From Neocallimastix lanati (nom. inval.) (lineage: Eukaryota; Neocallimastigomycota; Neocallimastigomycetes; Neocallimastigales; Neocallimastigaceae), in contig JACVTC010000307.1 in the NCBI GenBank assembly GCA_016946835.1, positions 27,501 to 51,288 on the forward strand: a stretch of 23,788 nt of DNA, given 5' to 3'. The position numbers and the translations under genes are program-made. Numbering within the stretch: the first letter of the stretch is position 1; each line of letters opens with the position of its first letter. Shown one piece after another: positions 1,154 through 22,085 of the stretch. The notes beneath the pieces are model-generated. The model was not told the DNA's origin, did not search any database, and was given only the letters and a program-made list of their open reading frames with translations.

Positions 1154-1955
1154 ATGCCTTTCGGTTTCACTAGTACTCCGGCTACGTTTCAACGGGGAAA
1201 TAAATAGGATATTTTTTCCCTTAATTGGAAAGTGTATGTTTCTGTATTTCGAGAGGTGAAAATTGATAGTCAAAACGTGTCACAAGTGTCAAGTTTTCCG
1301 TCCAAGACCATATCCAAAGGACTCCTAAAAGTATATCTACCCCGGCAGAAGCACCATTTCTACGGGTTGGACCGAATTAATTGGACATCTATATATTGCA
1401 AAAAGGAACAATCAATACATACAAAGTAGTGTTAGTAGACTATTTTACGGAATGGGTTGAAGCCAAACCTCTTCAAAAGACAGAATCTACGGATAATATC
1501 GACTTTATCGCAGAAGTGTTTAATCGTCATGAAATACCTGAAATACTTATAACAGACAATGAAACACAGTTTGTATCTACTTAAACAAAAGGATTCTTGG
1601 ATTTATACAACATTTACATAAAAACCGCAATATCCTACCACCCTGAGACTAACGGCAAAATGGAAAATAGGAACAAGGAAATTGGCTTATATTTACGTTT
1701 ATTAAATGAACAAGAGAAAGAGTGGGATGAATTGCTTTCGGCCTTCGAATTAACAGTGAATATCGATATGCAACTACCTGAAGAAACCAGAGAGGAATAC
1801 TTATTGAGAAAATTTATTAAACACAGAAAATGGAATTAAGAAGCAACATTAATATGAAAATGAAAACAAATTGTGAAGGGATAGGAGAAATCAGGTCAAA
1901 CTAACGAAGAAATATTACCAACCAGAAGATCTAAAACTTGTGAGATATTTAAATT
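1154..1955 (+). pseudogene. Ty3/gypsy pol relic (RT fragment plus integrase)
   Basis: The relic opens with the RT palm motif MPFGFTSTPATFQR (1154-1195), closed by a TAG at 1205. A shifted fragment, LIGKCMFLYF, stands where the YxDD region should be. Most of RT and all RNase H are missing. The integrase zinc-finger half VKTCHKCQ begins at 1269. The catalytic core follows with VDYFTEWVEAKP, ITDNETQF, a stop near 1582, and YHPETNGKMENRNKEIG with the catalytic E. The tail LLRKFIKHRKWN matches the equivalent tail of the Ty3 element at 8471-10390, so it belongs to the same or a sister family. At least four frameshifts or stops and two internal deletions make it a dead copy. No LTR is visible beside it. 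Confidence 0.85.
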
Positions 1956-1963
1956 GAAGAAAA

Positions 1964-2430
1964 TTGGATCATGGAAAAGAATTTGACAATATTCGAATTA
2001 AAAAATTCTGCTGCGAAAACGGTATTAAAAAAGAATATTCACCTCCCTACAATCCTGAAAGTAATGGCATAGTAAGACGTTTTAATCAAACCATTATTTC
2101 AAGTACTAAAACTTTAATCTTTTGGAGTAAAATATGTGATAATTTATGGGATTATGCAATTACATATGCTAATCTCATTTACAACAAAATGTCTCATAGT
2201 GGAATAGTTAATAAGATTCCTGATAAAGTACATTATAAAAAAAAAGTAGATATCAAATATCTAAGAGTTTGGGGATGCATTACTTACTAAAAGATTTTTC
2301 ACAAAATAAGGGAAAATTCTCTCCTAACGCTAAAAAGAGTATATTTCTTGGTTTTAATCAAAACACACAATGCTATATAATCATGGATTATGAAGATCAT
2401 AAATTACACCATGTGAGAGAAATATTATTT
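1964..2430 (+). pseudogene. Ty1/copia integrase relic
   Basis: The first frame gives DHGKEFDN (second catalytic Asp region), then the conserved SPPYNPESNGIVRRFNQTI, where the usual catalytic Glu of the NGxxER signature is replaced by Arg. It runs on to LRVWGCITY. A one-base deletion near 2290 shifts the frame to KDFSQNKGKF, then KKSIFLGFNQNTQCYIIMD and HHVREILF, which is the copia post-integrase region. The coding sequence then passes directly into an ATTATTT microsatellite. The N-terminal zinc finger, the first catalytic Asp and all of RT are absent. Abutting the Ty3 relic without an LTR suggests that two decayed elements were joined by nesting or deletion. Confidence 0.85.
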
Positions 2431-5223: not shown

Positions 5224-5295
5224 TGGAGAGTGAGTGATTCGAACACCCAACCTTCCGCTCTGGAGGCGGACGCGCTACCGTTGCGCCAACCCTCC
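5224..5295 (-). tRNA. tRNA-Trp (anticodon CCA)
   Basis: Read on the minus strand, the full cloverleaf forms: acceptor GGAGGGT/ACTCTCC (one G-T pair), D stem GCGC/GCGC with loop AACGGTA, anticodon stem TCCGC/GCGGA with loop CTCCAGA (anticodon CCA), a 5-nt variable loop, and T stem GGGTG/CACTC with loop TTCGAAT. The discriminator is A and no CCA is encoded. There is no intron. The D arm TGGCGCAACGGTAGCGCG and the B box GTGTTCGAATC closely match animal and fungal nuclear tRNA-Trp, so this is a nuclear gene with its own internal A and B boxes. All stems are intact, which suggests it is functional. An LTR element begins 15 bp upstream of its mature 5' end. Confidence 0.97.
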
Positions 5296-5310
5296 CCTTT
5301 CGTGATTATT

Positions 5311-5832
5311 TGATACGCAACTTATAAAAAAGTCACTTTAGGGTCGGGACAAACAAGTTTTATTAATATAAAATAATATATTCTAATAATAAGAATTAAA
5401 TAACACACAAATAAAAAAAATAATTTAAACAAAGATAATAATATTATTTAATATTTTAGTATTTTATTATTTTCTCTGTTTTTATATTTCAAATTAATAA
5501 TTTCATATATTTATCTCTAAAATCTATTTTCTATATTTATTATTTATTATAAAATTTCTCTTTCTATTTTCTAATCTTAATTATAAAGTATAAATCCCTT
5601 ATTTTAACTATTGAGTAATTCTTTTTCTCTAAGAATTCCCCTTTCTAATTATTTAATAATTGATCTTTTTATACTAAGTTTTCTCAATTCCTATTGGTAG
5701 TTAATTATTATTTAATTATATTATTTAATTATATTAAAATATTTAATATTCTTTATCACTAATCCACATATTAATATTGTTATTTTCTAATTTTTTACAA
5801 TTATTTTCTATTATTGTATGAGTAACGTATCA
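5311..5832. mobile_element. E1: solo LTR-like element beside the tRNA
   Basis: The 522-bp element starts TGATACG and ends CGTATCA, a perfect 7-bp terminal inverted repeat containing the TG...CA of LTRs. It is flanked by a direct TATT on both sides (5307-5310 and 5833-5836). A GGGTCGGGACA string near its left end resembles TTCGGGACA near the end of the LTR at 16211, which suggests its sense direction is minus. There is no ORF. E2 and E3 have the same termini and similar length. A MITE is the alternative, but the length, the TG/CA ends and the position 15 bp upstream of a tRNA gene favour a solo LTR. Confidence 0.7.
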
Positions 5833-5887
5833 TATTTGATAAAGAACGAACATATAATGGATTATTAATTAGAATTTCAACTTACTT

Positions 5888-6619
5888 TGTTGAAATTATA
5901 ACTGAATTGAAATCTCAATTTCAGTTATTTACATTTCAATAGTTAACAAATATTATTTATTTAGTTATAAATAATATATATATTTAAATAATTAATAATT
6001 AATATAAATTCTTATTTAATATTTAAGGAATTATCTTAGGCCTAATAATTCTGAGAATATTAGTAAATAAGATTTATATTAATAATTTCAATTATCTACA
6101 TATGACGTCACATGTATTTATTTATATTATGTTTATATATATGTTTACATCATATATATTAACTACTATTTTTAATTATTCAAATTAATTATATAATTAT
6201 AAATTAAATTTATTTAGTTATATTAAATATTTTAAACATATCGATATTGTTATTATCTTAATATTTTATTAATATTCATATTACTATATTATTAATATCT
6301 TATAATTAAATATTATTATTATGTAACTTACAAAGTATAAAAGAAAGATGTAAAAATCTATCTTTTATGTTCTTTGTAAGGTTATTGTACTTACAATAAT
6401 TATATATAATTCAATAAATAAATATTTTCATAAATCCTTCAAAGAAATTATTATTTAAAATATTCTTAGATATTAAGTGTTTAAATAACTTAACTATTTA
6501 TCTTATATTATTTTTATATTATTATTAATTAATTATTGTTGGATTATTAATATATAATTCAACATATTAACCTAGTAACGTTATTAATCATAAAACTATT
6601 TTATATCTTAATTTTAACA
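5888..6619. mobile_element. Solo LTR nested in the Gy1 5' LTR
   Basis: This 732-bp insertion begins TGTTGAAA and ends TTTTAACA, near-perfect inverted ends with TG/CA. A direct TACTT flanks it (5883-5887 and 6620-6624). The undisturbed site is seen in the 3' LTR at about 10460, which proves the borders. It has no reading frame. It contains a palindromic TGACGTCA and a long hairpin beginning CTTACAAAG at about 6328 and ending CTTTGTAAG at about 6380. It is unrelated by eye to the other LTR families here. TSD length and ends fit a Ty1/copia or Ty3 LTR left by LTR-LTR recombination. Confidence 0.92.
6103..6110. promoter_or_regulatory. CRE-like palindrome TGACGTCA
   Basis: This is a perfect ATF/CREB consensus inside the nested solo LTR, within a longer imperfect palindrome (ACATATGACGTCACATGT). 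Fission-yeast Tf elements are activated through ATF-type bZIP factors, so a promoter role is plausible. In such AT-rich DNA a GC-containing 8-mer is unlikely by chance, but its function is inferred. Confidence 0.4.
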
Positions 6620-7423
6620 TACTTTAGAATCCATTATATTATTCTTTACTTAATATTATTTTACTATATTTTCTATACTAAAATATTTTCTAAATATATA
6701 TTTTTTTTTTATATTTTTATTAAAAGTTTCTAAAATATTATCAATAATTCTATATTTTTATTATTAATATCAATATCTATAATTTAACCTTAAATTTTAT
6801 TATTTTATTAAAGTGTTTATTATCAATATTAATATTTTATTTTTATTTTCAAATATATTATTATATTATTATTATATTATATCAATATTAAAATTGTATT
6901 CTTTTTAGTATTTTATTTTATTTTTAAATTGATTATTTAATATTTTTATTCCCCACAAATAAAATCAAATCTTAATTGATTAATAATAAATATTAAATAT
7001 ATTATAGTTTTTAAATTTATTTTATATAAAATATAAGAATATTATATTAATAGTCTTGATTAAAATAACTTTATTTTTTCTGTAAAATCTTTTTAAATTT
7101 TGTTTGTTTCTTTTCGTATATATTAAATAATTTAGTTTTAGTATATGAAAAATAATATAAAATTATATAAACAAAATTTATTAAAATAAAAATATTTATG
7201 AATTAATTAATTTAAATTAATATAAAATTGAAGTAATTAGTCATAGTAGATTATTTTTTTTTTTAAATATGATAACAAAATGTAGAAAGGCTTTACATAT
7301 TTATTTTTTTTCAAAAAGTATAAATAAGTGAAGTTTTTCAATAATTAAAATGTAGACAGAAAAAATATTAAAAATAAATAATTAAATAAAATTCTAATAA
7401 AACCCGAACCATAACATAATTTA

Positions 7424-7440
7424 TGGTGGAGATATCGGGG
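7424..7440 (+). promoter_or_regulatory. Candidate Gy1 primer-binding site
   Basis: TGGTGGAGATATCGGGG starts 7 bp after the 5' LTR. It is complementary to a possible tRNA 3' end with discriminator A, acceptor strand TATCTCC and T stem CCCGA. Composition and position fit a tRNA-type PBS. I cannot name the tRNA. The LTR end and the adjacent TTATGG can also pair locally. Confidence 0.45.
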
Positions 7441-7493
7441 AATATTAGAAAAATAAAATTTAATATTATTTATTAATTAAATTATTTAACAAA

Positions 7494-7665
7494 GCCTTGG
7501 ATATAGATTTCCGGGCTAAGTTTAACCTACATAGTAATTGGGCTAGTAGGCTCTGGACTGCTGTATTTTATATTGAATACAGTATCCGTGGTACCCGCGT
7601 GGCATGACGCCGTGAAGAGGCAAGCTGCACGTCAGACAGGGTATACTATCAGATTATCCATAAGT
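7494..7665 (+). other. Structured GC-richer island 1 in the Gy1 leader
   Basis: This stretch is much richer in G and C than its surroundings and is self-complementary. Closing arms GGATA/TATCC lie near its ends. Hairpins CCTAC/GTAGG, CTGTATT/AATACAG (about 7560-7585) and GCGT/ACGC, and a longer GTACCC/GGGTA pairing, nest inside. No frame looks coding. It lies where Ty3 elements carry the untranslated leader and packaging signals. I do not recognise a known RNA family; RNase P, SRP and snRNA signatures were looked for and not found. Confidence 0.5.
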
Positions 7666-7936
7666 TTTGTTAAATAATAATAATTAATAATTTAATATTA
7701 ATATTAATAATAATAAAAGTTATCATAAAAAAAAAAACAAAAAAAAAAAAAAAAACTTTGGAAAACTTTAGTTTTTGTAGTAACTTTATTTAATTATAGA
7801 TTATAGATAAAAAAATAATAATAAAAAAAAAAAAAAAATAATAAAAAGTTAACAAATTTACGAAGTTAATATTCGAGTAAGACAGTGTTAGCTTGCAGGA
7901 TATTAATTTCATAAACTCTTATTTACAATTTTGCAA

Positions 7937-8112
7937 GGTTTTGTAGATTGTAAACGCGAGTATCTCAAGGAACAAATCCTTGACAATTAGGCAAATACGC
8001 CCTAGAACTATAAAACCTTCACGCTGAAGGCAACTACACACTTCAACAGGTGATAGTTTGTTTACTCGCGCAGAAAATAAGAGGTGGGTCAGGTTCGATC
8101 CCTGATAAAACC
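7937..8112 (+). other. Structured island 2 with tRNA-like ends in the Gy1 leader
   Basis: The ends pair as a 7-bp acceptor-like stem (GGTTTTG, 7937-7943, with TAAAACC, 8106-8112). Directly before the 3' strand is a canonical T arm, TCAGG-TTCGATC-CCTGA. A second 8-bp helix, CGCGAGTA (7955-7962) with TACTCGCG (8063-8070), encloses further hairpins (AAGG/CCTT, CCTTCA/TGAAGG, AACTAT/ATAGTT). This order of acceptor, inner helix, T arm and acceptor resembles a tRNA-like domain with a long insert where D and anticodon arms would be. There is no recognisable D arm or anticodon. It may be a viral-style tRNA-like structure or a tRNA-derived segment. Confidence 0.5.
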
Positions 8113-8192
8113 CTGGTCATTCTTGCGAAGTGACGTTAAAATATATAGTTTTTTTTTTATTTTTATTTTAGGCTTTTATAAATTTGTTCGCC

Positions 8193-8229
<37 letters not shown>

Positions 8230-8346
8230 TTTGCAATAAAATAAAAATATATATATTTTTTTTTCCTTTTATTAAAATAATAAATATTTCATTAATAAAT
8301 TTTTTTTAATAAATAATAAATTAAATTTTTCTTTAGTGTAGAACAA

Positions 8347-8401
<55 letters not shown>
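8193..8401 (+). repeat. ATT trinucleotide run and 49-base A tract
   Basis: An (ATT)n run of about 12 units begins at 8193. An uninterrupted A tract fills 8353-8401. The A tract sits between the untranslated leader and the first RT codons, exactly where gag, protease and most of RT should be. Confidence 0.85.
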
Positions 8402-8403
<2 letters not shown>

Positions 8404-8470
8404 AAAATTAAGATATTATTATATAGTTCTTATCTAAATGATTATAAATAAATAAAGTAAAAATGAAATA

Positions 8471-10390
8471 AATAAAAAATGTCACTTTATGCAAACAGAA
8501 GTTGAAGTTCTTGGTCACAAGATTTCTACTAAGGGTCTTAGTCCTCAAAATAGTAAAATTGAAGCAATTAAAGCCTGGAAAGAACCCACGAATATACATG
8601 AGTTAAGATCATTCTTAGGTGCTGTAGGATATTATAGGAACTTTATAAATGAATATGCTCAAACCTCAGCTCCTCTTTGTAAGCTATTAAGAAAAGGCGT
8701 AAAATATAAATGGAATAATGAACAAAAACAAAGTTTTACCAAATTAAAAGAAAAATTAATTAATGCTCCTATTTTAAAATATCCTGATTTTCCCAAAGAA
8801 TTCATTATTCGAACAGATGCATCATATGAAGGTATTGGTGGAGTTTTATTGCAGAAAGACGAATCGGAAATAGAACACCCGATTCATTTCATTAGCCGTA
8901 GCTTAACCAAAGCAGAAAAGAATTATGGAATAACCGATTTGGAAGGAACGGCTTTATATTATTGTATTACTAAATTAAAACCTTATATTATGGGAAGCCC
9001 CTTTAGAACCATAGTTTTTACAGATCACAAACCTCTACTAGGTTTATTTAATAATAAGGAACCGAATAATGCACGACAAACAAGATGGTGTTTGACTGCA
9101 AGTATGCTAAAAGTGGATATTCGCTATGAGCAAGGTAAAAAGAATGTAGTAGCCGACGCTTTATCTAGAATGAAGAACGATAAGGAACAAAAGGTATTAG
9201 CTATAAAAACAAATAAAGATGATGAAAATGATTCACTTTCTAAAGTAATTAAAGAATTTATTGAAGAAAAATTTACAAAGATTGATGGTATAGATTATTT
9301 TATAGATGGAAATAATTATAGAAAACTTGTTACCGAAACAAATGAAAAACTAAAATTAATTCTCGAAGCACATCATGTTGGCCATGAAGGTTATTATAAA
9401 ACATATCAAAGACTTAGAAAAAGTTACTACTGGAATGATATGGTCAACGATATAAAAAGGATAATTTCAAAATGCGAAAAATGTCAGTTAAATCGCCCTC
9501 AGCCATATCCAGAACCAACCGAAAACATTCCAACAGAAGTTGAAGGCCCTTTTACTCATCTTGGACTTGATATTATTGGTCCCTTAATAAAGACTGGTAA
9601 TAAAAACCAATATATCATTGTTGCGGTGGATTATTTCACAAAGTGGGTGGAGGCTGAACCTACTGAAAAAATTACATCTAAGGACATCATTAAGTTTTTA
9701 ATAAATGTTTTCGCTAGACATGGAGTTCCTTAAGTCATTACAACGGATAATGGCGTTCAATTCACATCGGATATGACTAAAATATTCCTGGACTTATATG
9801 ATGTTTACGTAAAATTTACCACTACCTATCACCCAGAAAGTAATGGATTGGTTGAAAATAGGAATAAAGAAATTGGTAAATTATTGAGATTACTTGGTGA
9901 AGAAAATAAAGACTGGGATGAGGTATTACCTTCAGCCTTGTGGGCCCTTAGAACTACAAAGAATTCTGTAACCAAACATTCTAGCTTCGAATTAGTTTAT
10001 GGTCGTGAGGATCAACAGCCTTTCGACAATGCTGCTAGACCTACACAAGGAGTGAATAAATCTTCAGATGAAATTCTTTTAGAAAAATTTATCTCACATT
10101 ATAGGTGGACCATGGAAGCAGCTGAAAATGTAAAGAACGCAAGTAAATATTGGGCCAATCGAAGGGAAGAAAAAAATAGCATGAAAAATTCCAAAAACAT
10201 AAGAATCGGTGATTTAGTTCTTGTTCGAAATTTTAGTCGTTCTAAATTAGAACCTTATTTTGTCGGTCCTTTTAAAGTAATAAAAAAACAATTTAATACC
10301 GTAACACTTGCGGACCCAAATACTATGATTCAAATGAATCGTAATGTTCATTTGAAAAATATAGTAAAGTATAACTCAGCTATAGATTAG
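8471..10390 (+). pseudogene. Gy1 pol remnant: RT thumb, RNase H, integrase
   Basis: A single frame is open from 8471 to 10390 except for one TAA at 9731-9733. It begins in the RT thumb (KCHFMQTEVEVLGHKIS), which shows the palm has been deleted. Numbering from Met 8489, RNase H keeps its four acidic residues: D110 (TDAS), E152 (TDLEGT), D179 (FTDHKP) and D223 (VADALSR). Integrase follows with the HHCC finger (AHHVGHEG, then CEKCQ), first Asp in GLDIIGP, second in TTDNG and Glu in GLVENRN. The C-terminus has the GPY/F module (EPYFVGPFKVI) and no chromodomain. The stop probably replaced a Gln or Lys codon before VITTDNG. Apart from it the enzyme core looks intact. Confidence 0.93.
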
Positions 10391-10400
10391 CTTGAGTCTT

Positions 10401-10413
10401 AGTGGGGGCATCT
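10401..10413 (+). promoter_or_regulatory. Gy1 polypurine tract
   Basis: AGTGGGGGCATCT lies directly before the 3' LTR and 10 bp after the pol stop. It would be the RNase H-resistant primer for plus-strand DNA synthesis. In this AT-rich window a run of five G is conspicuous. Confidence 0.85.
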
Positions 10414-11257
10414 TGATAAAGAACGAACATATAATGGATTATTAATTAGAATTTCAACTTACTTTAGAATCCATTATATTATTCTTTACTTAATATTATT
10501 TTACTATATTTTCAATACTAAAATATTCTCTAAATATATATATATTTTTTTTATATTTTTATTAAAAGTTTCTAAAATATTATCAATAATTCTATATTTT
10601 TATTATTAATATCAATATCTATAATTTAACCTTAAATTTTATTATTTTATTAAAGTGTTTATTATCAATATTAATATTTTATTTTTATTTTCAAATATAT
10701 TATTATATTATTATTATATTATATCAATATTAAAATTGTATTCTTTTTAGTATTTTATTTTATTTTTAAATTGATTATTTAATATTTTTATTCCCCACAA
10801 ATAAAATCAAATCTTAATTGATTAATAATAAATATTAAATATATTATAGTTTTTAAATTTATTTTATATAAAATATAAGAATATTATATTAATAGTCTTG
10901 ATTAAAATAACTTTATTTTTTCTGTAAAATCTTTTTAAATTTTGTTTGTTTCTTTTCGTATATATTAAATAATTTAGTTTTAGTATATGAAAAATAATAT
11001 AAAATTATATAAACAAAATTTATTAAAATAAAAATATTTATGAATTAATTAATTTAAATTAATATAAAATTGAAGTAATTAGTCATAGTAGATTATTTTT
11101 TTTTTAAATATGATAACAAAATGTAGAAAGGCTTTACATATTTATTTTTTTTCAAAAAGTATAAATAAGTGAAGTTTTTCAATAATTAAAATGTAGACAG
11201 AAAAAATATTAAAAATAAATAATTAAATAAAATTCTAATAAAACCCGAACCATAACA
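10414..11257 (+). repeat. Gy1 3' LTR
   Basis: This 844-bp LTR, TGATAAAG...CATAACA, is nearly identical to the 5' copy. I noted two substitutions and small length changes in AT or T runs. The right flank TATT equals the left flank of the element. Confidence 0.95.
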
Positions 11258-11261
11258 TATT

Positions 11262-11753
11262 TGATACGGTACCACCATAAATACCATAATTTAGTGAAAT
11301 TTAGGTTACTGAAATCTTATTGGTTAATAATAATTTAGTAATAATATATATAGTTAGTAAATAATAATAGTTTAAGGAATGGTTCTTTTATTAATATTAA
11401 TTTAGTTTATTAATTTAACCTATAAACATGTTTATTAGTATAGTTTAGTGTAGTTTTATATTTAGTTTACATTAATAATATGAGAGATTTTAGTAATTAA
11501 TTATATTTTATTGAATGATTTAATTATATTTTAACTAATTAACAATTATTTATATTGATGATGTATTTTTACTTATGAATGATAATAAATAAATAAACTA
11601 AATAAACTAAATATTAAAGTGTGAATATTATTATTGTGTGTATTATTCTATATAATATTAGAATATATTATTTTGTCAATTATTCCCTACTGTTATCATC
11701 CAAATAAAATAAAATAAATATTGATATTGATGTTTAATAAAAATATCGTATCA
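11262..11753. mobile_element. E2: solo LTR-like element
   Basis: This 492-bp element runs TGATACGGTACCACC...ATATCGTATCA, with TATT on both sides (11258-11261 and 11754-11757). The left 14 bases, TGATACGGTACCAC, recur inverted at the right end of E3. The right-hand part, with TCCAAATAAAATAAAATAAAT and then ATCGTATCA, matches the other end of E3. It contains ATTCCCTACTGTTA near its right end, also seen in the Gy2 LTRs. No ORF is present. Confidence 0.7.
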
Positions 11754-11759
11754 TATTTG

Positions 11760-12596
11760 TGTAAAGAATTATAATTATTTTTCAAAATAATTATTATTCT
11801 TTATTAAAAAATTAATATTTAAAGTTTATTATTTTATAAAATTTTATGAATAATTTTATTAACTATGTCACATAGTAATTATTAATTAATGTTATTGTTT
11901 TAAAATTTATTTACATTAAATTAATTTATCAATAATTAATATATTAAATTATAATAATGTATTATTGTATTAAAATAATGATAAATTCTATTTAATTAAG
12001 AAAAATTAAATTGTATTAAAATGATAATGTTATTTAATCAAGAAATAATTAAATTATATTATTTCTTGGACTTTTAATTAAGATAATTAAAAGAATTAAG
12101 TATTTAATTATACTTGTGATTAAATATTAATAAAATTAATATATAATTAGTTAATAAGTTTTCTCCCTTATTCGGGTTTTCTTATTAACTAAAGATTGAT
12201 GTAATTAAACACCAATCGAGATCTATCTAGTTTTTTCTTCTAATCTTTTTCTAGATAGAAATAATTTTCCAAGATTAGAAATCAAATTAATATAAATAGG
12301 ACTCTTGATTCTTCTAAAAATAATCAAGAGTTATTATTATAAGAAATTATAATAATTAACACAAATATTTTAAAATTACTTTTAATAAAAAATTTTTATA
12401 ATAAAATAACTTCTAAAATACTTTTAACCTACTTTTAGTGTTGTTTATTATAATCTTATAATAAACTCTAAGTTTTTAAATTTTCGTTTTCAATTTTTAT
12501 ATTATATTTTTTAATTTTATCTCAATTAATAATATTTTTTATTATTAAAAGAATTAATTATTAATATAATTATATATTATTAATTAATTCTTTACA
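11760..12596 (+). mobile_element. C: Gy2-family solo LTR, sense orientation
   Basis: This 837-bp element runs TGTAAAGAATT...AATTCTTTACA, flanked by ATTTG (11755-11759 and 12597-12601). It carries the family features in the same order as the Gy2 5' LTR: a terminal hairpin (11771-11794), the interleaved inverted repeats (12222-12279), a CTCTTGATT/AATCAAGAG hairpin, and AAGAGTTATTATTAT (12326-12340), the proposed self-primer. The right part, with AATAAACTCTAAG, matches Gy2 U5. Confidence 0.85.
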
Positions 12597-12601
12597 ATTT
12601 G

Positions 12602-13478
12602 TGTAATAATTCTATTAAGAACTAACTCAAAATAGAATTATTAACTACAACTTAACGACTAATTCATTAAGTTGAGAAAATAAAATAAAATAAATTTTTT
12701 TACCTTTAGAGTAGAGTTTATTATAAAATTAATTATAATAATAACACAAAAAGTAAGAGAAGAATTGTTTGTATAAATTGATTTTAAAAATATGTTTTTG
12801 AATAAAATATTTTTATTAATTTATTAAAGTTAAAAATATAAAATTGTTACTATTATAACTATGTTTTTTATAATAATAACTCTTGATTTCTCAAAGAGAA
12901 CTCAAGAGCCTTATTTATATTTTTTTATGAAAATAAGGTTAAATAAGAAAGGGTTTTCTAATCTTAACAAATCTCTTATCTAGGAAAAGATTAGATAGAA
13001 AAACCTAGATAAGTTTTCGATCGATATTCTATCCATATCGATCATCGCATTAATTAAGTAAAACCGATTACTTCTAAAAAGTAATTGGAAAAAATCTTAA
13101 TTAACCGATTTTCCAATCTAATGATCGAAAATAAAAGAATAAAATAATAAAAGATATTTCGACCATATAATTTATCCTTATATTAAAAATATAAAATTAA
13201 ATAGTTAATAAAATACAGAATACATTATAAAATACAGAATACATTATAAAATACAGAATAAAATACAATACAAAATATATTAGTTACAGTAGGGAATTTA
13301 ACATATTGTAAATATATTATTTAAAATTAATTAAATAAATTTTGTTAAATTAATGAATATTTAAAATTAAATTAAATAAATTTAATAAATATTATATGTA
13401 ATTAAATAAAGTTATAGTTATAATAACTTAACTAAGAAAATATAATTATTTGTTAGCAAATAATTATAGATTCTTACA
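12602..13478 (-). mobile_element. A: Gy2-family solo LTR, antisense
   Basis: This 877-bp element is a near-identical inverted copy of the Gy2 5' LTR at 17657-18518. On the plus strand it reads TGTAATAATTC...GATTCTTACA, with ATTTG on both sides (12597-12601 and 13479-13483). It has one more copy of a 19-bp repeat (13210-13258) than the Gy2 LTR. The complement of the self-primer lies at 12872-12884. Confidence 0.92.
13210..13258. repeat. 19-bp tandem repeat inside LTR A
   Basis: Two full and one partial copy of AAAATACAGAATACATTAT. The mirror LTR at 17657-18518 has one copy fewer, so the array changed length after the two copies separated. Confidence 0.85.
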
Positions 13479-13483
13479 ATTTG

Positions 13484-14186
13484 TGTAATAATCATACTAA
13501 GTTCATTACTAAATATGATTATTAACTTCAACTTAATGACGAAATCAAGAGCCCTTTTTATATTTTTTTATTGAATTAAGGTTAAATAAAAAGTTTTTCT
13601 AATCTTAAAAATTATCTTATCTAGAAAAAGATTAGAAGAAAAAACTAGATAAGTTTTGATCGATATTCTATTCATATCGATCATCGTATATATTAAGTAA
13701 AACCAAATATATTATTTTATATTTGGATAAAACCTTAATATATCGATTTTCTAAATTTTAATTTAGATCATCAAAAATAAATAATAACCGGAATGATCTA
13801 AATTATTCTATTTTTCTAAATATTATTTTTAAAATCTAATCTAAACATATTAACATAAAACTATCTTTAAAAAATACAGAAACTTATTAATTGTTCTTTT
13901 AAATGTACAATGTACAAAATAAATAAAACTAATGTTTACATTAACTTAATAATTAAATGAATAATTAAATAAAATTAATAATATTAATAAAAGTATATAT
14001 AATAATTATTTAAATAAATTTTTAATATTATTTTAGTGTATGAATAATTATATTTTTAATAAATTTGATAATAATATTTCAATGTATGAATTAATTATAA
14101 TTTAAATAAATTTATAATTATTATCAATAATTATAAAGACTAAGAAATAGTAATTATTTATTAATAAATAATTATTATTTCTTACA
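13484..14186 (-). mobile_element. B: Gy2-family solo LTR, antisense, shortened
   Basis: This 703-bp element runs TGTAATAATCATAC...ATTTCTTACA, flanked by ATTTG (13479-13483 and 14187-14191). It keeps the interleaved inverted repeats (13598-13653), the branched domain after them and a perfect 24-base palindrome at 14151-14174 near its end. It has lost the segment with the primer-complementary site. It is more diverged than A, which fits an older insertion. Confidence 0.85.
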
Positions 14187-14189
14187 ATT

Positions 14190-14644
14190 TGGTAAAGAAC
14201 GAACATATAATGGATTATTAATTAGAATTTCAACTTACTTTAGAATCCATTATATTATTCTTTACTTAATATTACTTTACTATATTTTCTATACTAAAAT
14301 ATTTTATAAATATAATTTTTTTTCCATAAATTTTGTTTGTTTCTTTTTGTATATATTAAATAATTTAGTTTGAGTATATGAAAAATAATATAAAATTATA
14401 TAAACAAAATTTATTAAAATAAAAATACTTATGAATTAGTTAATTTAAATTAATATAAAATTTGAAGTAATTAGTAATAGTAAATTATTTTTTTTTTAAA
14501 ATATGATAATAAAATGTAGAAAGGCTTTACATATTTATTTTTTTCAAAAAGTATAAATAAGTGAAGTTTTTCAATAATTAAAATGTGGACAGAAAAATAT
14601 TCAAAATAAATAATAAAATTTCTAATAAAACCCGAACCATAACA
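14190..14644 (+). mobile_element. Gy1-family solo LTR with internal deletion
   Basis: It starts TGGTAAAGAACGAACATATAATGG and ends CCCGAACCATAACA, both matching Gy1. It is 455 bp instead of 844 because the middle is missing, with the break near 14320. The right flank is TATT (14645-14648). The left side is shared with the ATTTG duplication of B, so B inserted after it, using its first two bases. Confidence 0.9.
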
Positions 14645-14648
14645 TATT

Positions 14649-15507: not shown

Positions 15508-16204
15508 TGTAATAACACAAAATTAATACTTAACTTTTATAAAAATAACAATAATTGTTAAAAATATTTCGAGTTTATTAAGAAATTTTATTATATATTA
15601 TTTTCTAAATAATAACTCTTGATTTTTATTTTATAGAAAAATCAAGGTTATTTATAATTTTTTTGTTCATAATCTTAAAAGTTATTCTTTCAGGAAAAAA
15701 ATTATGAGAAAAAACCTGAAAGATAAAATAAATTAATTATTTATTATTTAATATAATTTAATATTATTTAATATTGGCAATTAACCAATATTTTATGAAA
15801 TTATTTATTATGATGTTTTAAGTTTATAATTATTAATTAATTTTATATTAATTTAATATTAATTATATTAATATTAAATGTTTTAATATAATTAATCACG
15901 TATTATTGTTAATGATAAATCAAATGATTAATTATTTATATTAAATAGAAATTGGTTATTAATTAAAGATATTGTTTATATTTCATAATAATTAATTATT
16001 AATTAGTTAAAAAATTAATTTTATCAATTAATAATTATTTTTATTTTATTATTTAATAACAATTATTAAAATTATAGTATATTAAATAATATTAAGTGTT
16101 AATTTTATTGTAAAATTATTCAAATCTTAATTAATAATAAAAATAAATATAATATTTATATTATATTTGATAAAGTGTGACTAATTAATTAGTCAGCACT
16201 TACA
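15508..16204 (-). mobile_element. D: Gy2-family solo LTR, antisense, diverged
   Basis: This 697-bp element runs TGTAATAACAC...GCACTTACA, with a perfect 5-bp duplication GTCAA on both sides (15503-15507 and 16205-16209). It keeps AATAATAACTCTTGATTT with its hairpin (about 15610-15645), interleaved inverted repeats with a changed sequence (15667-15723) and an end hairpin GACTAATT/AATTAGTC (about 16179-16194). It lies inside the flank of the next LTR, so it is a separate later insertion. The most diverged member, it is the best test of which pairings are conserved. Confidence 0.85.
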
Positions 16205-16210
16205 GTCAAA

Positions 16211-17115
16211 TGTTGAGGTTCGGGACAGAATAATAATAAATATAGAATTAAACACTAAAATAATAAAAAAAAAATTAAAAATTAAAATATATCTTTTTTT
16301 AAAATATTTTATTTATTTATCTAATAAAAATTATTCAATTAAAAACTAAAAATAATTTTATTTCTTCAATAAGATTATATTTTTCAAGATTATTTTTCTC
16401 AAATACAATTTTCTCATCTATTTATATTTTTTTTTATCGTTAGAAATGGTCAAGCCATTTCTTTAGAATATCTTAGAGTTTCATGTTTGAATTGTATTTA
16501 AATTATAAATTCATAATCTATTCTATTATAATAAATAATTATTATATATTATTAAATTCTAAACTATTTATTATTAATTGTAGTAATAATATATTTTAAA
16601 AATAATTTTATTACTTTTACAGAACTATTAGTAATAGAGTATTATTTAATTTTATACTATTTTTAAATAAAAGTATTTTAGATTATTATCTATTATTAAT
16701 CTTATTATAAATAGGGTGTATTTTGGAAGGAAGTATTACTAATTTTAATGACAAGGATCATGGATTTAAGTAAAATATTTTTAAATCATTATTAATTATA
16801 TTAATTTTTATTAATAATAAATAATCTGTATTAGTAATATTTGTAAAATAAAATTTTCTTTAATAATAAAATATTGATAGAATAAATCATATTAATAATA
16901 CTAGATATTGATAATATAGTATTAATTTTAATAATAAAGTATTGATATTGATAAAGAATTTATATTAATAATAATAAATTTAATATTAGTAATAATTTGG
17001 CAGTAATAGAACATAAGAAAGTTCCCCAAGTAAGGAAATAAATAATTTAATTTTAGTGGTTAAGTTATTTTTATGAAAAATAATAAAATTAACATTATTT
17101 GTTCATTCCTTAACA
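16211..17115 (-). mobile_element. Gy1-like solo LTR, reverse orientation
   Basis: On the minus strand it begins TGTTAAGGAATGAACAAATA, which matches the Gy1 LTR start TGATAAAGAACGAACATATA, and ends CCCGAACCTCAACA against CCCGAACCATAACA in Gy1. At 905 bp it is a diverged relative, not a recent copy. There is no clear target duplication. It abuts E3 through AATT. Confidence 0.7.
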
Positions 17116-17119
17116 AATT

Positions 17120-17653
17120 TGATACGTATCTTTTATATTTAAAGATGTATCTAAATAATTTTATTTGTTTGGACGTTGTCAGAAGGGAATTATTAAAAAA
17201 ATAATATATTCTAATAAAAATAATAACGCATAATGTATAAATATAAATATATAATTTAAATGTAAAGATTTGTCTTTATTTATTTATTCTTATTTCTTTA
17301 TTTATTTTTATTACATTATTCTCAATGTTTACAAAAATATAAAAATACAAGTTATATATTTATTGTTATCTTTCTCACTAGCTATCTAATTATACACTTA
17401 ATAATTAATATTTATTACTCTATAAACTATTATATTTTCTACTAATAAACCTGTTATTTTGAAGTATCTTTATTATATATTTCCTATATTATAACAAAGA
17501 ACTCCTCGTTTAATTATTAATGAATTATCAAAATATGTATCTAACTATTTAGTTTTATTTAATTATCTACCAATCATTATTAATTTTTAATTTATTACTT
17601 TAACTAATTTCTAAAACTATTCCTAACAATGTTTTTAGTGTGGTACCGTATCA
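17120..17653. mobile_element. E3: solo LTR-like element, inverted relative to E2
   Basis: This 534-bp element runs TGATACGTATC...GTGGTACCGTATCA. The right end is the reverse complement of the E2 left end over 14 bases, and the interior next to the left end also matches E2. The left end forms a hairpin from GATACGTATCTTT and AAAGATGTATC. Flanks are AATT and AAA, not a clear duplication, because the Gy2 insertion starts at its right edge. Confidence 0.65.
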
Positions 17654-18103
17654 AAATGTAAGAATCTATAATTATTTGCTAACAAATAATTATATTTTCT
17701 TAGTTAAGTTATTATAACTATAACTTTATTTAATTACATATAATATTTATTAAATTTATTTAATTTAATTTTAAATATTCATTAATTTAACAAAATTTAT
17801 TTAATTAATTTTAAATAATATATTTACAATATGATTAAATTCTCTACTGTAACTAATGTATTTTGTATTGTATTTTATTCTGTATTTTATAATGTATTCT
17901 GTATTTTATTAACTATTTAATTTTATATTTTTAATATAAGGATAAATTATATGATCGAAATATCTTTTATTATTTTATTCTTTTATTTTCGATCATTAGA
18001 TTGGAAAATCGGTTAATTAAGATTTTTTCCAATTACTTTTTAGAAGTAATCGGTTTTACTTAATTAATGCGATGATCGATATGGATAGAATATCGATCGA
18101 AAA

Positions 18104-18160
18104 CTTATCTAGGTTTTTCTATCTAATCTTTTCCTAGATAAGAGATTTGTTAAGATTAGA
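18104..18160 (+). promoter_or_regulatory. Interleaved inverted repeats (candidate pseudoknot) in Gy2 U3
   Basis: CTTATCTAGG (18104-18113) pairs with CCTAGATAAG (18133-18142), and TCTAATCTT (18122-18130) pairs with AAGATTAGA (18152-18160). The arms alternate, so both can form together only as an H-type pseudoknot. All Gy2-family LTRs have it, with stem sequences that change in both arms. In RNA it would lie in the 3' untranslated end. As DNA it could be a paired factor-binding site 70-130 bp upstream of the start. Confidence 0.65.
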
Positions 18161-18197
18161 AAACCCTTTCTTATTTAACCTTATTTTCATAAAAAAA

Positions 18198-18245
18198 TAT
18201 AAATAAGGCTCTTGAGTTCTCTTTGAGAAATCAAGAGTTATTATT
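18198..18245 (+). promoter_or_regulatory. Gy2 TATA box and transcript start/self-primer
   Basis: TATAAATAA at 18198-18206 lies 35 bp before AAGAGTTATTATT (18233-18245). The latter is the exact complement of the 13 bases at the LTR/leader junction and is conserved in LTRs C, A and D. If transcription starts here, the RNA 5' end could fold back and prime cDNA synthesis, as described for Tf1. The start point is inferred from this pairing. Confidence 0.6.
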
Positions 18246-18517
18246 ATAAAAAACATAGTTATAATAGTAACATTTTTATATTTTTAACTTTAATAAATTA
18301 ATAAAAATATTTTATTCAAAAACATATTTTTAAAATCAATTTATACAAACAATTCTTCTCTTACATTTTGTGTTATTATTATAATTAATTTTATAATAAA
18401 CTCTACATTAAAGGTAAAAAAAAAATTTATTTTATTTTATTTTCTCAACTTAATGAATTAGTTGTTAAGTTGTAGTTAATAATTCTATTTTGAGTTAGTT
18501 CTTAATAGAATTATTAC

Positions 18518-18530
18518 AATAATAACTCTT
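18518..18530 (+). promoter_or_regulatory. Gy2 primer-binding site (self-primed)
   Basis: AATAATAACTCTT spans the last LTR base and the next 12 bases. All 13 pair with 18233-18245 inside the same LTR. No TGG, as needed for a tRNA primer ending in CCA, is found near the LTR end. Confidence 0.65.
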
Positions 18531-18711
18531 CTTAGATTAGCTTAGGGTTAGATAAAATGTGAAAAATTTTTAGAATAGTGTAACGTTGGAAATTTTATTA
18601 GTGAATTAGCCTATTGAAATTATATATATTAGAATACAATAATAATATATAGCTAGAGTGGCACAAAAAAAATTATATTAAAAAAAAAAAATTATATTAA
18701 AAAAAAAAATT

Positions 18712-18743
<32 letters not shown>

Positions 18744-18944
18744 TTTTTTTTAATAGTTAATAATAGAATAATAAATTAATATTATAGAATAGTTTTAGAT
18801 TATAATAATTTAATTAAAATAATTTTAGAATAAATATAATAATATATAATAGATTAGAATTATTTTAATAATTTAGAATTAATAGTATAGAATAATAAAT
18901 AATTTTAGATAATATAATTAAGAATAGAAAGAATAATTTAAAAT

Positions 18945-19002
<58 letters not shown>

Positions 19003-19061
19003 ATAATAATAATAAATAAATAAAGAAATAAATAAAAACATTAAAAAATAAATTAAAAATA
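18531..19061 (+). repeat. Gy2 leader, proximal part with long A tracts
   Basis: This stretch is untranslated. A runs occupy about 18671-18743, broken by ATTTATATT, and 18949-19000 (52 bases uninterrupted). Between them is AT-rich sequence with TAATA and TTTAGAATA repeats. The minus-strand frames here are T-run translations. Confidence 0.75.
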
Positions 19062-19310
19062 ACAAACTGAGAAGGTAATAATACCTTCATATATAGAGTT
19101 AGCCATCTAATTGGGGATGGTGAGTACATTTTTAGGTAGTAATAAAGGAAAGGTCTCCTTTTCCTATACCGTAGCGTTTTGTACCGTACGGAAATGCAGT
19201 ATTTCACGTGAAAGTATAGGTTATCCGAATGTAGCTCTAGCGAATAAGGAACTCTTGGTCACCGAAGGCCTCGAGGTTCTTCAATATTATGTATTGAAGT
19301 AAAATTATAT
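19062..19310 (+). other. Structured island 1 in the Gy2 leader
   Basis: It is clearly richer in G and C than its surroundings and full of paired arms: GAAGGTA/TACCTTC, GCCATC/GATGGT, GGAAAGG/CCTTTTCC, CCTATAC/GTATAGG enclosing CCGTA/TACGG, the palindrome TTTCACGTGAAA, and CTTCAATA/TATTGAAG at the right end. A 63-codon frame (19111-19302) crosses all of them. It has no recognisable domain and is better explained as leader RNA. Confidence 0.55.
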
Positions 19311-19361
19311 AGTTTTAATTTTAATAATGGGTTTTAACAGTTTGTTTATCCCAAACAAAAT

Positions 19362-19415
19362 TGGTTATAGCAGTTATGTTTTTTTATGCTTGATTATATA
19401 AAACTGCTATGGAAA
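19362..19415 (+). other. Leader hairpin
   Basis: ATAGCAGTT (19367-19375) pairs perfectly with AACTGCTAT (19402-19410) around a T-rich 26-nt loop. It lies between the two larger structured islands of the Gy2 leader. Confidence 0.55.
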
Positions 19416-19605
19416 ACATAAAATATTTTTTTTTATGTTTTAATGGATCACTTTTGCCGGTTTTTGAATGTTGTAAGGCATAAGAAGGTGATATTGAATT
19501 TTAATTAAAATAATACTAAATATTGTATTTATGCAGAAGTTTATAATAAAGGATAAGTTTATAATAATATTTTGTTAATCATTTTAACTTAATTTCCAAG
19601 TACGT

Positions 19606-19690
19606 AGTTGACCGTTACTGGTAGGCTGTAACATTAGACCTACACCTCAGCCCTTTGGTTGATAAACCAAATGAACGGTAACACGGAAAG
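19606..19690 (+). other. Structured island 2 just before gag
   Basis: CCGTT (19612-19616) pairs with AACGG (19674-19678). Inside are hairpins GTAGG/CCTAC (19621-19643) and TTTGGTT/AACCAAA (19654-19671, GATA loop). It ends about 130 bases before the gag ATG, the position expected for a packaging or translation-control element. The role is inferred. Confidence 0.5.
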
Positions 19691-19819
19691 GAAGAAATTA
19701 AAGTGTATTCTATAAAATATTTATTAATCAAAATCCTTATTATAATTCTTAATTTTGTGTAATAAAAATGTCCATTTTGTTAACTCTATCCTATTTTTAT
19801 CTATACTAAAGGCACAAAA

Positions 19820-20620
19820 ATGGATTTCAATAGTAATAAACAAGCAATTTCCTCAAGTGAAGTTAATAATTCCTATCTCCATGATGAAAATGCATCCAAA
19901 CTTATTACTGCAATTGCTGACTTCATTCCTGCTTTCTTTTCTCCTAATGGTGTCCTCCAAAAGGAAAATGAAAGCAATAAACTAAATATCTTAGAAATTT
20001 TAATTCAAAGTGAAGATTTCTTTAAGGAGCATCCAAATTCTTTTCAAAAGGATGAACTAAAAAGTTCTTTTGTTATTAATAAACTTACTGGTACCGCCAG
20101 AAAATGGGGTCTTTCTCTTTTAACTGATGGTACTCTAAAGAACCTTGAATTTAGTAAGTTTAAGAAGCTCTTACTGGATAACTTTGATATTGGGAATGAA
20201 AGGAAGCAAAAATATGTCATCATGGAAAAGTTATGGAAATTGAAACAACTTCAACTAGGAAATGTTGCTGAATATACTATTGAATTTCGGAGATTGGCTG
20301 GACGTTTAGGATGGCCCGACGAAGTTTTAATCGATATAATCGGTAAGGGTCTACTTGACAAAGTCCGCGAAGAGTTTGATAAACTCGAAAAGCCATCTAC
20401 TCTTCTTGAAGCTACCAATATTATTATTGGAATTGATAAGAAGTGTTTTTTGGAAAGACGTCTACGCCACAATCAAAAAAATAAATTTAATGGAAAAATG
20501 TCGTTTCATAGGAAGAGAAACGATTTATTAAAATCAGAAAAGAATTCTAAACATTCTCATTTCAGAAAAAATAAGTCTAAAAAACGACATACTTTCAGCA
20601 AATTACACCCCGAATATTAA
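19820..20620 (+). CDS. Gy2 Gag (capsid) protein
   Basis: The 266-codon uninterrupted frame starts at an ATG preceded by ACAAAA, a good fungal context. Gag forms the cytoplasmic virus-like particle that packages element RNA. Residues about 50-215 have the retrotransposon Gag capsid pattern: FFKEHPNSFQKDELK, LTGTARKWGLSLL (the W-containing helix), FKKLLLDNF, and LKQLQLGNVAEYTIEFRRLA with GWPDE. The last about 50 residues are strongly basic (RKR, KNKSKKRH), suited to binding nucleic acid. There is no CCHC zinc knuckle, as in Tf1-type Gags. The protease frame lies +1 and overlaps the Gag end from about 20532, so Gag-Pol would need a +1 shift or a one-base indel. It is the only intact element gene here. 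Confidence 0.88.
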   Translation: MDFNSNKQAISSSEVNNSYLHDENASKLITAIADFIPAFFSPNGVLQKENESNKLNILEILIQSEDFFKEHPNSFQKDELKSSFVINKLTGTARKWGLSLLTDGTLKNLEFSKFKKLLLDNFDIGNERKQKYVIMEKLWKLKQLQLGNVAEYTIEFRRLAGRLGWPDEVLIDIIGKGLLDKVREEFDKLEKPSTLLEATNIIIGIDKKCFLERRLRHNQKNKFNGKMSFHRKRNDLLKSEKNSKHSHFRKNKSKKRHTFSKLHPEY

Positions 20621-21029
20621 AACAACAATCACAACTACCTTCTACCTTGATATTAATGGAAGAAATATTAAGGCAAATCTATTAATTGATTCGGGTTCTG
20701 CCAGAAGTTTTATTTGTAAAAACTTCGCAAATTCTAATAAATTACCTGTGTTAGGACTCAATTCCCAAATCAACATCCAACTTCCTAATGGGAAAAGTAT
20801 GAATATCAGACAAACTACTAAGCCCCTTAAATTAAAATTTATGGATCATAAGGAAACTTTTGAATTCTGCATTGCTAATCTATCTCTTCAGGGCATTAAT
20901 GGTATTCTTGGAAGGGATTGGTTATCCATTCACAATCCTTTCATCGATTATAAAAATAATAGAATCTACTTCCTTGGTAGATACTGTGGCTCACATTGCC
21001 CATCCTCCAAAAGTAATAAGTTTTTTTAA
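20532..21029 (+). pseudogene. Gy2 protease segment of pol
   Basis: This frame lies +1 from gag and is open from 20532. The retropepsin begins around FYLDINGR (20640), with catalytic LIDSGSARSFI (Asp codon 20688-20690), a flap-region stretch IQLPNGKSM and the conserved ILGRDWLSIH near the end. These are the two signature motifs of Ty3 proteases. It would act as a dimer to process Gag-Pol. The frame closes at TAA 21027-21029 directly in a 7-T run, and the next pol frame continues through the same run, so a single T gained or lost explains the break. There is no start of its own; it was made as part of a polyprotein. Confidence 0.85.
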
Positions 21030-22085
21030 TCAAAATAAAAATATTACTGCTTCAATGTTGGAGAATTCAGAAGAAGATTCAGTATTACCAAATTCGGCTT
21101 TTGATACAGATATCTCAGATTATGATTTATGTGCTGCAATGATTGATTCAGAAGAAGTAAACACTGACGTTCAGGGAAAAGAAGAGATTATTAATAAATA
21201 CTATTCGGATCTTAAAATAGTATTTGAAAAGAAACAAGCTGAGAACTTACCACCTCATCGTGACTATGATATTGCTATTGAGCTTTTTCCTGGTGGACAA
21301 CTTTATTTTGGTCCAATATACTCTCTTACTGTACAAGAACTGAAAGCTTTAAAGGATTATATTAAGGAAAACTTAAAAAAGAAATTCATTAGGAAGTCAA
21401 AATCACCAGCAGGTGCTCCTATATTATTTGTAATGAAACGCGATGGTACCCTTAGAGTCTGTGTAGATTATCACCGGTTAAATGCTATCACAATCCGTAA
21501 TAGCTACCCAATTCCAAGAATAAATGACTTGATTGAATCCTTTCAAGGAGCTAAGATATTTACTTCGTCTTGACCTTAGATCTGCTTATAACCTAATCAG
21601 AGATAAAGAAGGTCACGAATATCTTACTGCTTTTAGAACCCCTTTAGGACATTTCGAATATCTCGTTATGCCTTTTGGTCTTCGAAATGCCCCTTCGGTT
21701 TTCAACGTTTTGTACAAGATATCTTCAGTGATATCATTGGTTCTTTCATGCAAGTCTATCTGGACGACATCATTATTTACTCTAACAACGAAGAAGAACA
21801 TATTAAACATGTTAGGATCGTTCTTCAACTTCTCATCAACAATGGATTATATGCTAAATTAGAGAAATGTGACTTCCATGTTACTAAAACCACTTTCTTA
21901 GGCTTCACTGTTTCTGTAGATGGTCTCACTATGGATAAGGATAAGGTAAAATCTGTTCTGGATTGGCCTATTCCGAAGAATCAAAAGGAATTACAAAGTT
22001 TTCTAGGCTTATGTAATTTCTATAGAAAGTTTATCAATAATTTTTGCCAAAAATATGGAACCTCTTCGTCGACTTTTAAGGAAAA
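21022..22085 (+). pseudogene. Gy2 reverse transcriptase segment of pol
   Basis: After an acidic linker, RT begins with the fingers (YDIAIELFPGGQLYFGPIYS), LRVCVDYHRLNAITIRNSYP and IPRINDLI. A one-base gain near 21565 shifts the frame into [11 protein letters not shown], with the first catalytic Asp, and then [15 protein letters not shown]. One T lost in a T run near 21700 shifts back to [12 protein letters not shown], the catalytic YLDD box (21757-21768). The thumb and connection follow ([35 protein letters not shown]). An A-run indel near 22050 shifts the frame again. All seven RT blocks and both catalytic Asp sites are recognisable, so the shifts look recent or are sequence errors. Confidence 0.9.

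Follow-up and report, generated by a model that had tools for sequence, protein, structure and literature searches.

We analyzed a window of 23,788 nucleotides from the anaerobic gut fungus Neocallimastix lanati (contig JACVTC010000307.1, here C232:27501-51288; the genome is very AT-rich and comprises 199 Mb in 762 contigs), in which a series of retrotransposon long terminal repeats (LTRs) abuts the upstream side of a tRNA-Trp gene. This ladder is very probably a growth series of position-specific insertions made upstream of the tRNA by several Ty3/gypsy families. The reading rests on the anatomy of the ladder, on a sister copy of the locus in an intermediate state, on other tRNA genes with the same spacing, and on further ladders in the genome. 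Below, numbers preceded by C denote contigs and numbers preceded by L denote loci.

A ladder of LTRs beside tRNA-Trp

The initial annotation of this DNA described LTR units of three families that follow head to tail from 15 bp upstream of the tRNA, with spacers that register within one sequence, TATTTG. The features are as follows (TSD, target-site duplication; RT, reverse transcriptase; the -66 family is described below).

5224-5295, minus strand: tRNA-Trp (CCA), found by ARAGORN, the anchor of the ladder
5307-5310: TATT, the tRNA-proximal target copy, from sequence
5311-5832, minus strand: E1 solo LTR, 522 bp, TGATACG...CGTATCA
5833-5836: TATT, target copy between E1 and Gy1
5837-11257, plus strand: Gy1, an internally deleted Ty3/gypsy element
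5837-7416 and 10414-11257: 5' LTR (interrupted) and 3' LTR of Gy1
5888-6619, plus strand: nested solo LTR of the -66 family, 732 bp, in the Gy1 5' LTR
5883-5887 and 6620-6624: TACTT, the TSD of the nested 732-bp LTR
8489-9730, plus strand: Gy1 pol piece, RNase H and integrase H2C2
11258-11261: TATT, target copy between Gy1 and E2
11262-11753, plus strand: E2 solo LTR, 492 bp
11754-11759: TATTTG, the TATT of E2 overlapping the ATTTG of C
11760-12596, no strand assigned: C solo LTR, 837 bp, 5-bp TSD ATTTG
12597-12601: ATTTG, target copy between C and A
12602-13478, no strand assigned: A solo LTR, 877 bp
13479-13483: ATTTG, target copy between A and B
13484-14186, no strand assigned: B solo LTR, 72% identical to A
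14187-14191: ATTTG, made of ATT (14187-14189) and the first TG of the old Gy LTR
14190-14644, plus strand: old Gy solo LTR with an internal deletion
14645-14648: distal TATT, on the outer side of the old Gy LTR
16168-17115: further LTR-like unit, TGATAAAG...TTAACA, then AATT, placed by its sequence ends only
17120-17653: further E-type LTR, TGATACG...CGTATCA, then AAA, placed by its sequence ends
17657-23788, plus strand: A-family element that runs off the contig, with an LTR (17657-18518), a gag frame (19820-20620), and RT pieces

The exact edges bear out the abutting units and their spacing. The first LTR starts at 5311, 15 bp from tRNA-Trp (11 bp, then TATT), and TATT, TATTTG, or ATTTG lies at each junction; E1, E2, and Gy have 4-bp duplications, and A, B, and C have 5-bp duplications. 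The abutment stands, and the description is corrected on other points. E1 is opposite in direction to Gy1 and E2, judged by the purine-tract and primer-site flanks of related copies (L003, L005, L006, L008); Gy1 holds a nested LTR; and the ladder passes 14648, continuing with the 16168-17115 unit, the E-type LTR, and the A-family element. Nor does the count of three families stand. The LTR sequences suggest about five: E1 and E2 have the terminal TGATACG/CGTATCA in common and otherwise show no mutual match at E 1e-8, B departs from A as listed, and C matches A and B over short stretches only. Gy LTRs start with either TGATAAAG or TGGTAAAG (the latter seen in L031, L050, and L069), so no mutation is required at 14190.

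The ladder LTRs have the TG...CA ends and 4-6 bp target duplications found in Ty3/gypsy elements (Metaviridae). Gy1 retains 3.0 kb between its LTRs. Its pol piece, directly followed by a stop at 9731, matches RNase H and integrase H2C2 and does not match Pfam RVT_1, gag, or protease. Ty3-G is the best PDB match both for this piece (E 3e-35) and for C-family pol (E 4e-119); among named matches, the closest to the Gy1 fragment, at 77% identity, are Orpsp1 proteins, which we take to be from Orpinomyces. The pol order RT - RNase H - integrase is present in a C element (L094), a -66 element (L072), and the L070 element, and an A element (L093) has pol domains up to RNase H within the stretch fetched. 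The gag-pol of L094 lies on the strand opposite to the window's C LTR, and that of L093 on the strand opposite to the window's A LTR. A TGG-containing sequence, a candidate primer site, follows the Gy and E2 LTRs. Short E2 elements, whose LTR starts are 2.6-2.7 kb apart, match Gy in the primer-site and purine-tract sequences that border the two LTRs internally and may therefore be moved by Gy-type proteins. A tRNA-Thr called inside Gy1 (7937-8113) by ARAGORN run with introns was judged spurious; it is absent from the first ARAGORN run.

The initial annotation held that distal copies are older and more decayed, which is roughly the case. E1 is up to 99.8% identical to another copy (L003), and the two Gy1 LTRs are 99.0% identical (5 mismatches and 3 gap bases in 809). 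The nearest copies of E2, C, and A are 99% (C290), 98% (C755), and 99% (C555) identical, respectively, and the 14190 LTR is 93-94% identical to Gy with about 380 bp missing; these comparisons cover E1, Gy1, E2, C, A, and the 14190 LTR.

Sister copies, other tRNA genes, and other ladders

The 1 kb 3' of tRNA-Trp recurs in seven places at 99-100% identity: C232 (the window), C262, C149, C2, C748, C167, and C23. Next to the tRNA on the ladder side, at 13-17 bp, the seven copies have LTR ends that differ, with only C167 and C23 in agreement. In C2, E2 comes first, 15 bp from the tRNA behind AATA (TATT), without Gy1 and E1. C2 is the intermediate state predicted for the window before Gy1 and E1, and it upholds the proposal of the initial annotation that newcomers enter at the tRNA-proximal copy and reuse the target. 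In C2, a -66-family element splits E2 at 51 bp, and the E2 beside C in C167 carries the same insertion. In C149, a different LTR (TGACAAATG...TTTATCA, identified by its ends and its ATAA duplication) sits one base off, ahead of E2-C-A-B-Gy. In C748, another LTR (TGGTACGT...) adjoins E2 behind AATA. Finally, the Gy-E2-C-A series of the window is found again in C173, a contig whose first bases fall within a Gy LTR and which does not include the tRNA. The ladder block is common to these copies either through duplication or among haplotypes, yet it kept growing at the tRNA end. We note that the distance to a contig end is 8-41 kb for all seven tRNA-Trp copies, as would be consistent with a subtelomeric location or with contigs broken at repeats.

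LTR edges stand at similar distances from other tRNA genes. Gy lies 16 bp from tRNA-Arg (L031); E2 lies 14 bp from another tRNA-Trp (L068) and 23 bp from tRNA-Glu (L066); C lies 18 bp from tRNA-Ser (L097); and A-type LTRs lie 14 bp from tRNA-Arg (L017), 17 bp from tRNA-Thr (L020), and 16 bp from tRNA-Trp (L076; also C555 by coordinates). The named families use Trp, Arg, Glu, Ser, and Thr genes, to which the LTR-end motif (TATCA, TTACA, TAACA, or TACCA) adds Asn. The initial annotation had proposed tabulating such distances genome-wide. Across 85 tRNAs in 45 clusters, two of which were dropped for another tRNA directly upstream, the motif occurs 10-23 bp upstream in 29 of 43 non-redundant flanks, mostly at 12-18 bp; 2000 draws of control windows averaged 4.2 such flanks and never exceeded 10. 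When loci were chosen solely by tRNA score (L009-L038), a hand count gave the motif in 20 of 29 flanks. Downstream, LTR-start motifs stand at equal distance in 4 of 36 tRNA flanks (flanks of at least 40 bp). Upstream of tRNA-Asn at L009 and tRNA-Trp at L071, a common sequence of 740 bp at 94% identity begins 18 and 17 bp from the tRNA, respectively.

Several observations concern the tRNA genes themselves. The C555:170732-399007 region holds 34 of the 63 listed tRNA matches, some about 0.5 kb apart, and the six of these with loci (L033-L038) are tRNA-Arg(TCT) by ARAGORN. Many of the tRNA-Arg genes at L009-L034 have a partner, either a tRNA-Asn about 13-15 bp upstream or a nearby opposite-strand tRNA-Thr.

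Ladders also exist elsewhere in the genome. Around E2, 9 of 18 outer left flanks have a CA at exactly 4 bp, and 8 of 18 outer right flanks have a TG at that distance (p = 2e-8 and 1.5e-9 versus local background). These flanks come from non-redundant copies, with internal sides of full elements excluded and with 7 of 30 loci dropped as copies of the window locus (L040, L041, L042) or of others (L046, L057, L058, L059). Overlapping 5-bp duplications occur at tRNA-Trp in C24 (CAAAA, L077), at tRNA-Trp in C555 (ATTTG, L076), in C755 (TGTTG), and in C146 (CACAT). The targets of other ladders include TTGT/TGTTG (C755), CAAAA (L077), CACAT (L100), TCTC (L054), TCGC (L055), and CTCT (L065). That one target is reused by different families, as first described for the window, extends to tRNA-Ser in C755 and tRNA-Trp in C24 and C555; given the varied targets, the site appears to be set by distance to the tRNA and not by TATTTG. 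In C755, two features placed the tRNA side beyond the outer end of a 5.9-kb C element, namely the overlap and a Gy LTR with another LTR nested 51 bp inside it, and we expected a tRNA or a further LTR at that end. A tRNA-Ser(CGA) lies there, 18 bp from the outer LTR, with TGTTG on both sides of C. Ladders in C95, C124, and C146, extended likewise, yielded more retroelement sequence and no tRNA.

A second family at 65-67 bp

The LTR nested in Gy1 belongs to a further Ty3/gypsy family, whose pol, read in L072, contains RT, RNase H, H2C2, rve, and SH3_Tf2-1. A copia-like identity, suggested by the ends of the 732-bp LTR, is ruled out by this pol. LTRs of the family and of related subfamilies lie 65-67 bp upstream of tRNA-Asn, tRNA-Arg, and tRNA-Trp in nine locus groups. 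The distances are as follows.

67 bp: L012
65 bp: L015
66 bp: L016
67 bp: L021, L022, and L030, counted as one
66 bp: L038
66 bp: L072 (same insertion in C167/L095)
65 bp: L079
65 bp: L080, its edge placed by the 735-bp subfamily length
66 bp: L090

L021 and L080 have a piece of intervening LTR in common and could be one event. No LTR-end motif occurs in the 66 bp that separate the tRNA from the -66 LTR in L038. The measurements cover loci in which a tRNA or a ladder LTR lies close to the edge; they do not include L062, L065, the additional copy in L021/L030, or partial matches lacking an edge (e.g., L013, L029, L068).

Nested copies give the same figure by another route. In five of five readable cases (L001, L002, L050, L054, L077), the -66 copy sits 51 bp inside the outer end of its host LTR, three times in Gy and twice in other LTRs; sequence preference could contribute in the three Gy cases, and the L054 and L077 copies are of a related subfamily matched only in part (68%). 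Since 51 + 15 = 66, each nested copy fits entry while its host LTR adjoined the tRNA. The nested LTR of the window fits entry after Gy1 and before E1, which dates these layers without recourse to the spacers and agrees with the order, Gy1 before E1, that the initial annotation had drawn from them.

We favor, with some reservation, the broader notion that two fixed rulers operate on the same tRNA promoters: several Ty3/gypsy families insert at about -15 and another lineage at -66±1, the tRNA genes keep a stratigraphic record, and the -66 integrase is tethered to the upstream face of the RNA polymerase III (Pol III) machinery. The two rulers would lie on either side of the expected TFIIIB position. 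The ladder would grow only at the tRNA, and nested -66 insertions would date its layers. The partner of the -66 tether could be, e.g., Bdp1 or a phased nucleosome, read with near single-base precision. The available passages of the related literature contain no description of a near-single-base upstream Pol III tether for a gypsy element.

Proposed position-specific integration and its alternatives

We propose that the ladder arose because the integration site of several Ty3/gypsy families lies about 13-18 bp upstream of tRNA genes. Their integrases most likely dock on the Pol III initiation complex, as Ty3 does on TFIIIB, and the tRNA rather than the DNA sequence would set the target. A newcomer would enter between the tRNA and the last arrival, moving older elements outward; the 4 bp duplicated would be the same for E1, E2, and Gy, and the 5 bp duplicated by A, B, and C would overlap them. 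In the window, B, then A, then C would have entered TATT/TG, where TG is the Gy LTR start, each duplicating ATTTG; E2, Gy1, and E1 would have entered later, each duplicating TATT. We infer that LTR-LTR recombination then left mostly solo LTRs. The tether is proposed by analogy: according to passages of PMC8632968, TFIIIB occupies about -15 to -32 relative to the transcription start and holds the Ty3 integrase, which integrates 2-3 bp upstream of the start; passages of PMC5006619 give about 12-15 bp from the mature tRNA. By these distances, the 13-18 bp site is the Ty3 position, and -66 lies past TFIIIB on its far side. Because a match to TATT says little by itself in AT-rich DNA, the weight rests on the exact LTR edges and the C2 copy.

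Several results pull the other way. The motif set and window behind the 29 of 43 flanks were picked after the flanks had been inspected. Only one of the four extended ladders reached a tRNA. Nearest-copy identities are not strictly ordered along the ladder, A being no more decayed than C. Near the 103 tRNAs listed (within 20 kb), the best copies of the E1, E2, Gy, A, and C LTRs show no enrichment (4 of 172, with 2.6-3.6 expected), a weak test in that the listed tRNAs are mostly Arg and Trp and that tRNA-Ser and tRNA-Glu cases could not count. It drew on the best 40 or so candidates per LTR, i.e., the copies most like the window's, and excluded the window, its tRNA-Trp sister copies, and short secondary matches, with C275 kept. 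By Rfam, no Pol III gene lies within about 1.5 kb on either side of 20 of 20 E2 loci, a set drawn from 30 by leaving out the loci with ARAGORN tRNAs (L041, L066, L067, L068) and six redundant ones. Likewise, no tRNA lies within about 1.5 kb on either side of seven of seven other E1 loci.

In one alternative, integration is drawn to LTR ends or to the adjacent duplicated target, and the tRNA serves only as the first landing place. In its favor, the gap between E2 and a neighboring LTR end is exactly 4 bp in 9 of 18 left and 8 of 18 right flanks, the tested E2 loci are devoid of nearby Pol III genes, and enrichment near the listed tRNAs is absent. Such self-targeting is improbable as the full account. 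Single LTRs of several families lie 14-23 bp from five tRNA types, the newcomers in the sister copies entered on the tRNA side, the -66 family keeps its tRNA distance in L038 across DNA with no LTR-end motif, and the C755 ladder ended at a tRNA. Attraction to LTR junctions may nonetheless add to Pol III targeting. A still less probable account is that the block formed once by recombination and spread by segmental duplication, the serial insertions being illusory. The initial annotation had named recurrence of the block elsewhere as evidence against serial insertion, and E2-C-A-B-Gy does recur in C149, with parts in C748, C173, C167, and C2. However, where the contig includes the tRNA, the recurrences are copies of the whole tRNA-Trp locus, the same in 3' flank and tRNA, that differ at the insertion point; duplication therefore copied the ladder and did not make it. 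The states of C2 and C149 contradict a single origin, the LTRs keep intact ends with target duplications, and ladders of other composition stand at other tRNAs. Finally, that the integrases recognize TATTTG rather than the tRNA accounts for the register of every spacer in the window, but the probability we assign to it is negligible, given that other ladders use other targets while the distance stays constant.

Position-specific integration upstream of tRNA genes by retrotransposons is known, on the evidence of passages from the papers cited here, from Ty3, DGLT-A, and Tj1. Ty3/sigma of Saccharomyces cerevisiae is likewise a Ty3/gypsy element that inserts upstream of tRNA genes in the Pol III start region (PMC5006619, PMC8632968). 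Unlike Ty3, the elements described here comprise several families per site, with 4-bp or 5-bp duplications and deep ladders, and their TFIIIB binding is presumed. DGLT-A of Dictyostelium and relatives inserts on average 15 bp (13-33) upstream of tRNA genes, and a table note mentions stacking of tRNA-targeted elements at one tRNA gene in dictyostelids; the host group differs, and the available passages of that paper include neither a dated multi-family ladder nor a -66 ruler (PMC5006619). Tj1 of Schizosaccharomyces japonicus, a Ty3/gypsy element with a 5-bp duplication, also inserts upstream of mature tRNAs but closer, at 5-11 bp, and its experimental insertions have one orientation, whereas both occur here (passages of PMC4600332). 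Ty1 of S. cerevisiae resembles the -66 family in lying upstream of tRNA genes beyond the start site. It is a copia-type element directed by nucleosomes, and its insertions extend over up to about 1 kb (passages of PMC5911963), whereas the -66 family has Ty3/gypsy pol and lay at 65-67 bp in the nine locus groups measured.

Among the papers listed in searches of the open-access literature, none dealt with tRNA-targeted retrotransposons in anaerobic fungi. As far as that literature shows, the host lineage, the number of families per site, the depth and internal dating of the ladders, and the -66 family are new. If the proposed reading is true, several Ty3/gypsy families at once use Pol III-directed integration in a 199-Mb genome, and the argument that Pol III targeting serves survival in compact genomes, made in passages of PMC5006619, needs another look. 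The tRNA genes would be fossil records that give the relative order of insertions with no need of a molecular clock, and the -66 ruler would let one ask which Pol III part or nucleosome each integrase reads.

Further observations lie apart from the ladder. A pattern scan for an LTR end followed by an A box gave 52 + 81 matches versus 26 + 25 in the reversed control; it was dropped as evidence because many of the listed rows are one dispersed repeat and one tRNA-like repeat with a period of about 10-11 kb. The latter, a tRNA-like A-box sequence, occurs mostly every 10-11 kb on C188, C251, C266, C304, C350, and C353 and resembles a tandem repeat. The dispersed repeat with a tRNA-like A box (TATCAGAATGCTC...) lies on many contigs (e.g., C1:37332-37378) and is possibly a tRNA-derived short element. 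Finally, on the 3' side of tRNA-Trp, window positions 1380-2400 hold what appear, judged by eye only, to be decayed integrase-like coding remains.

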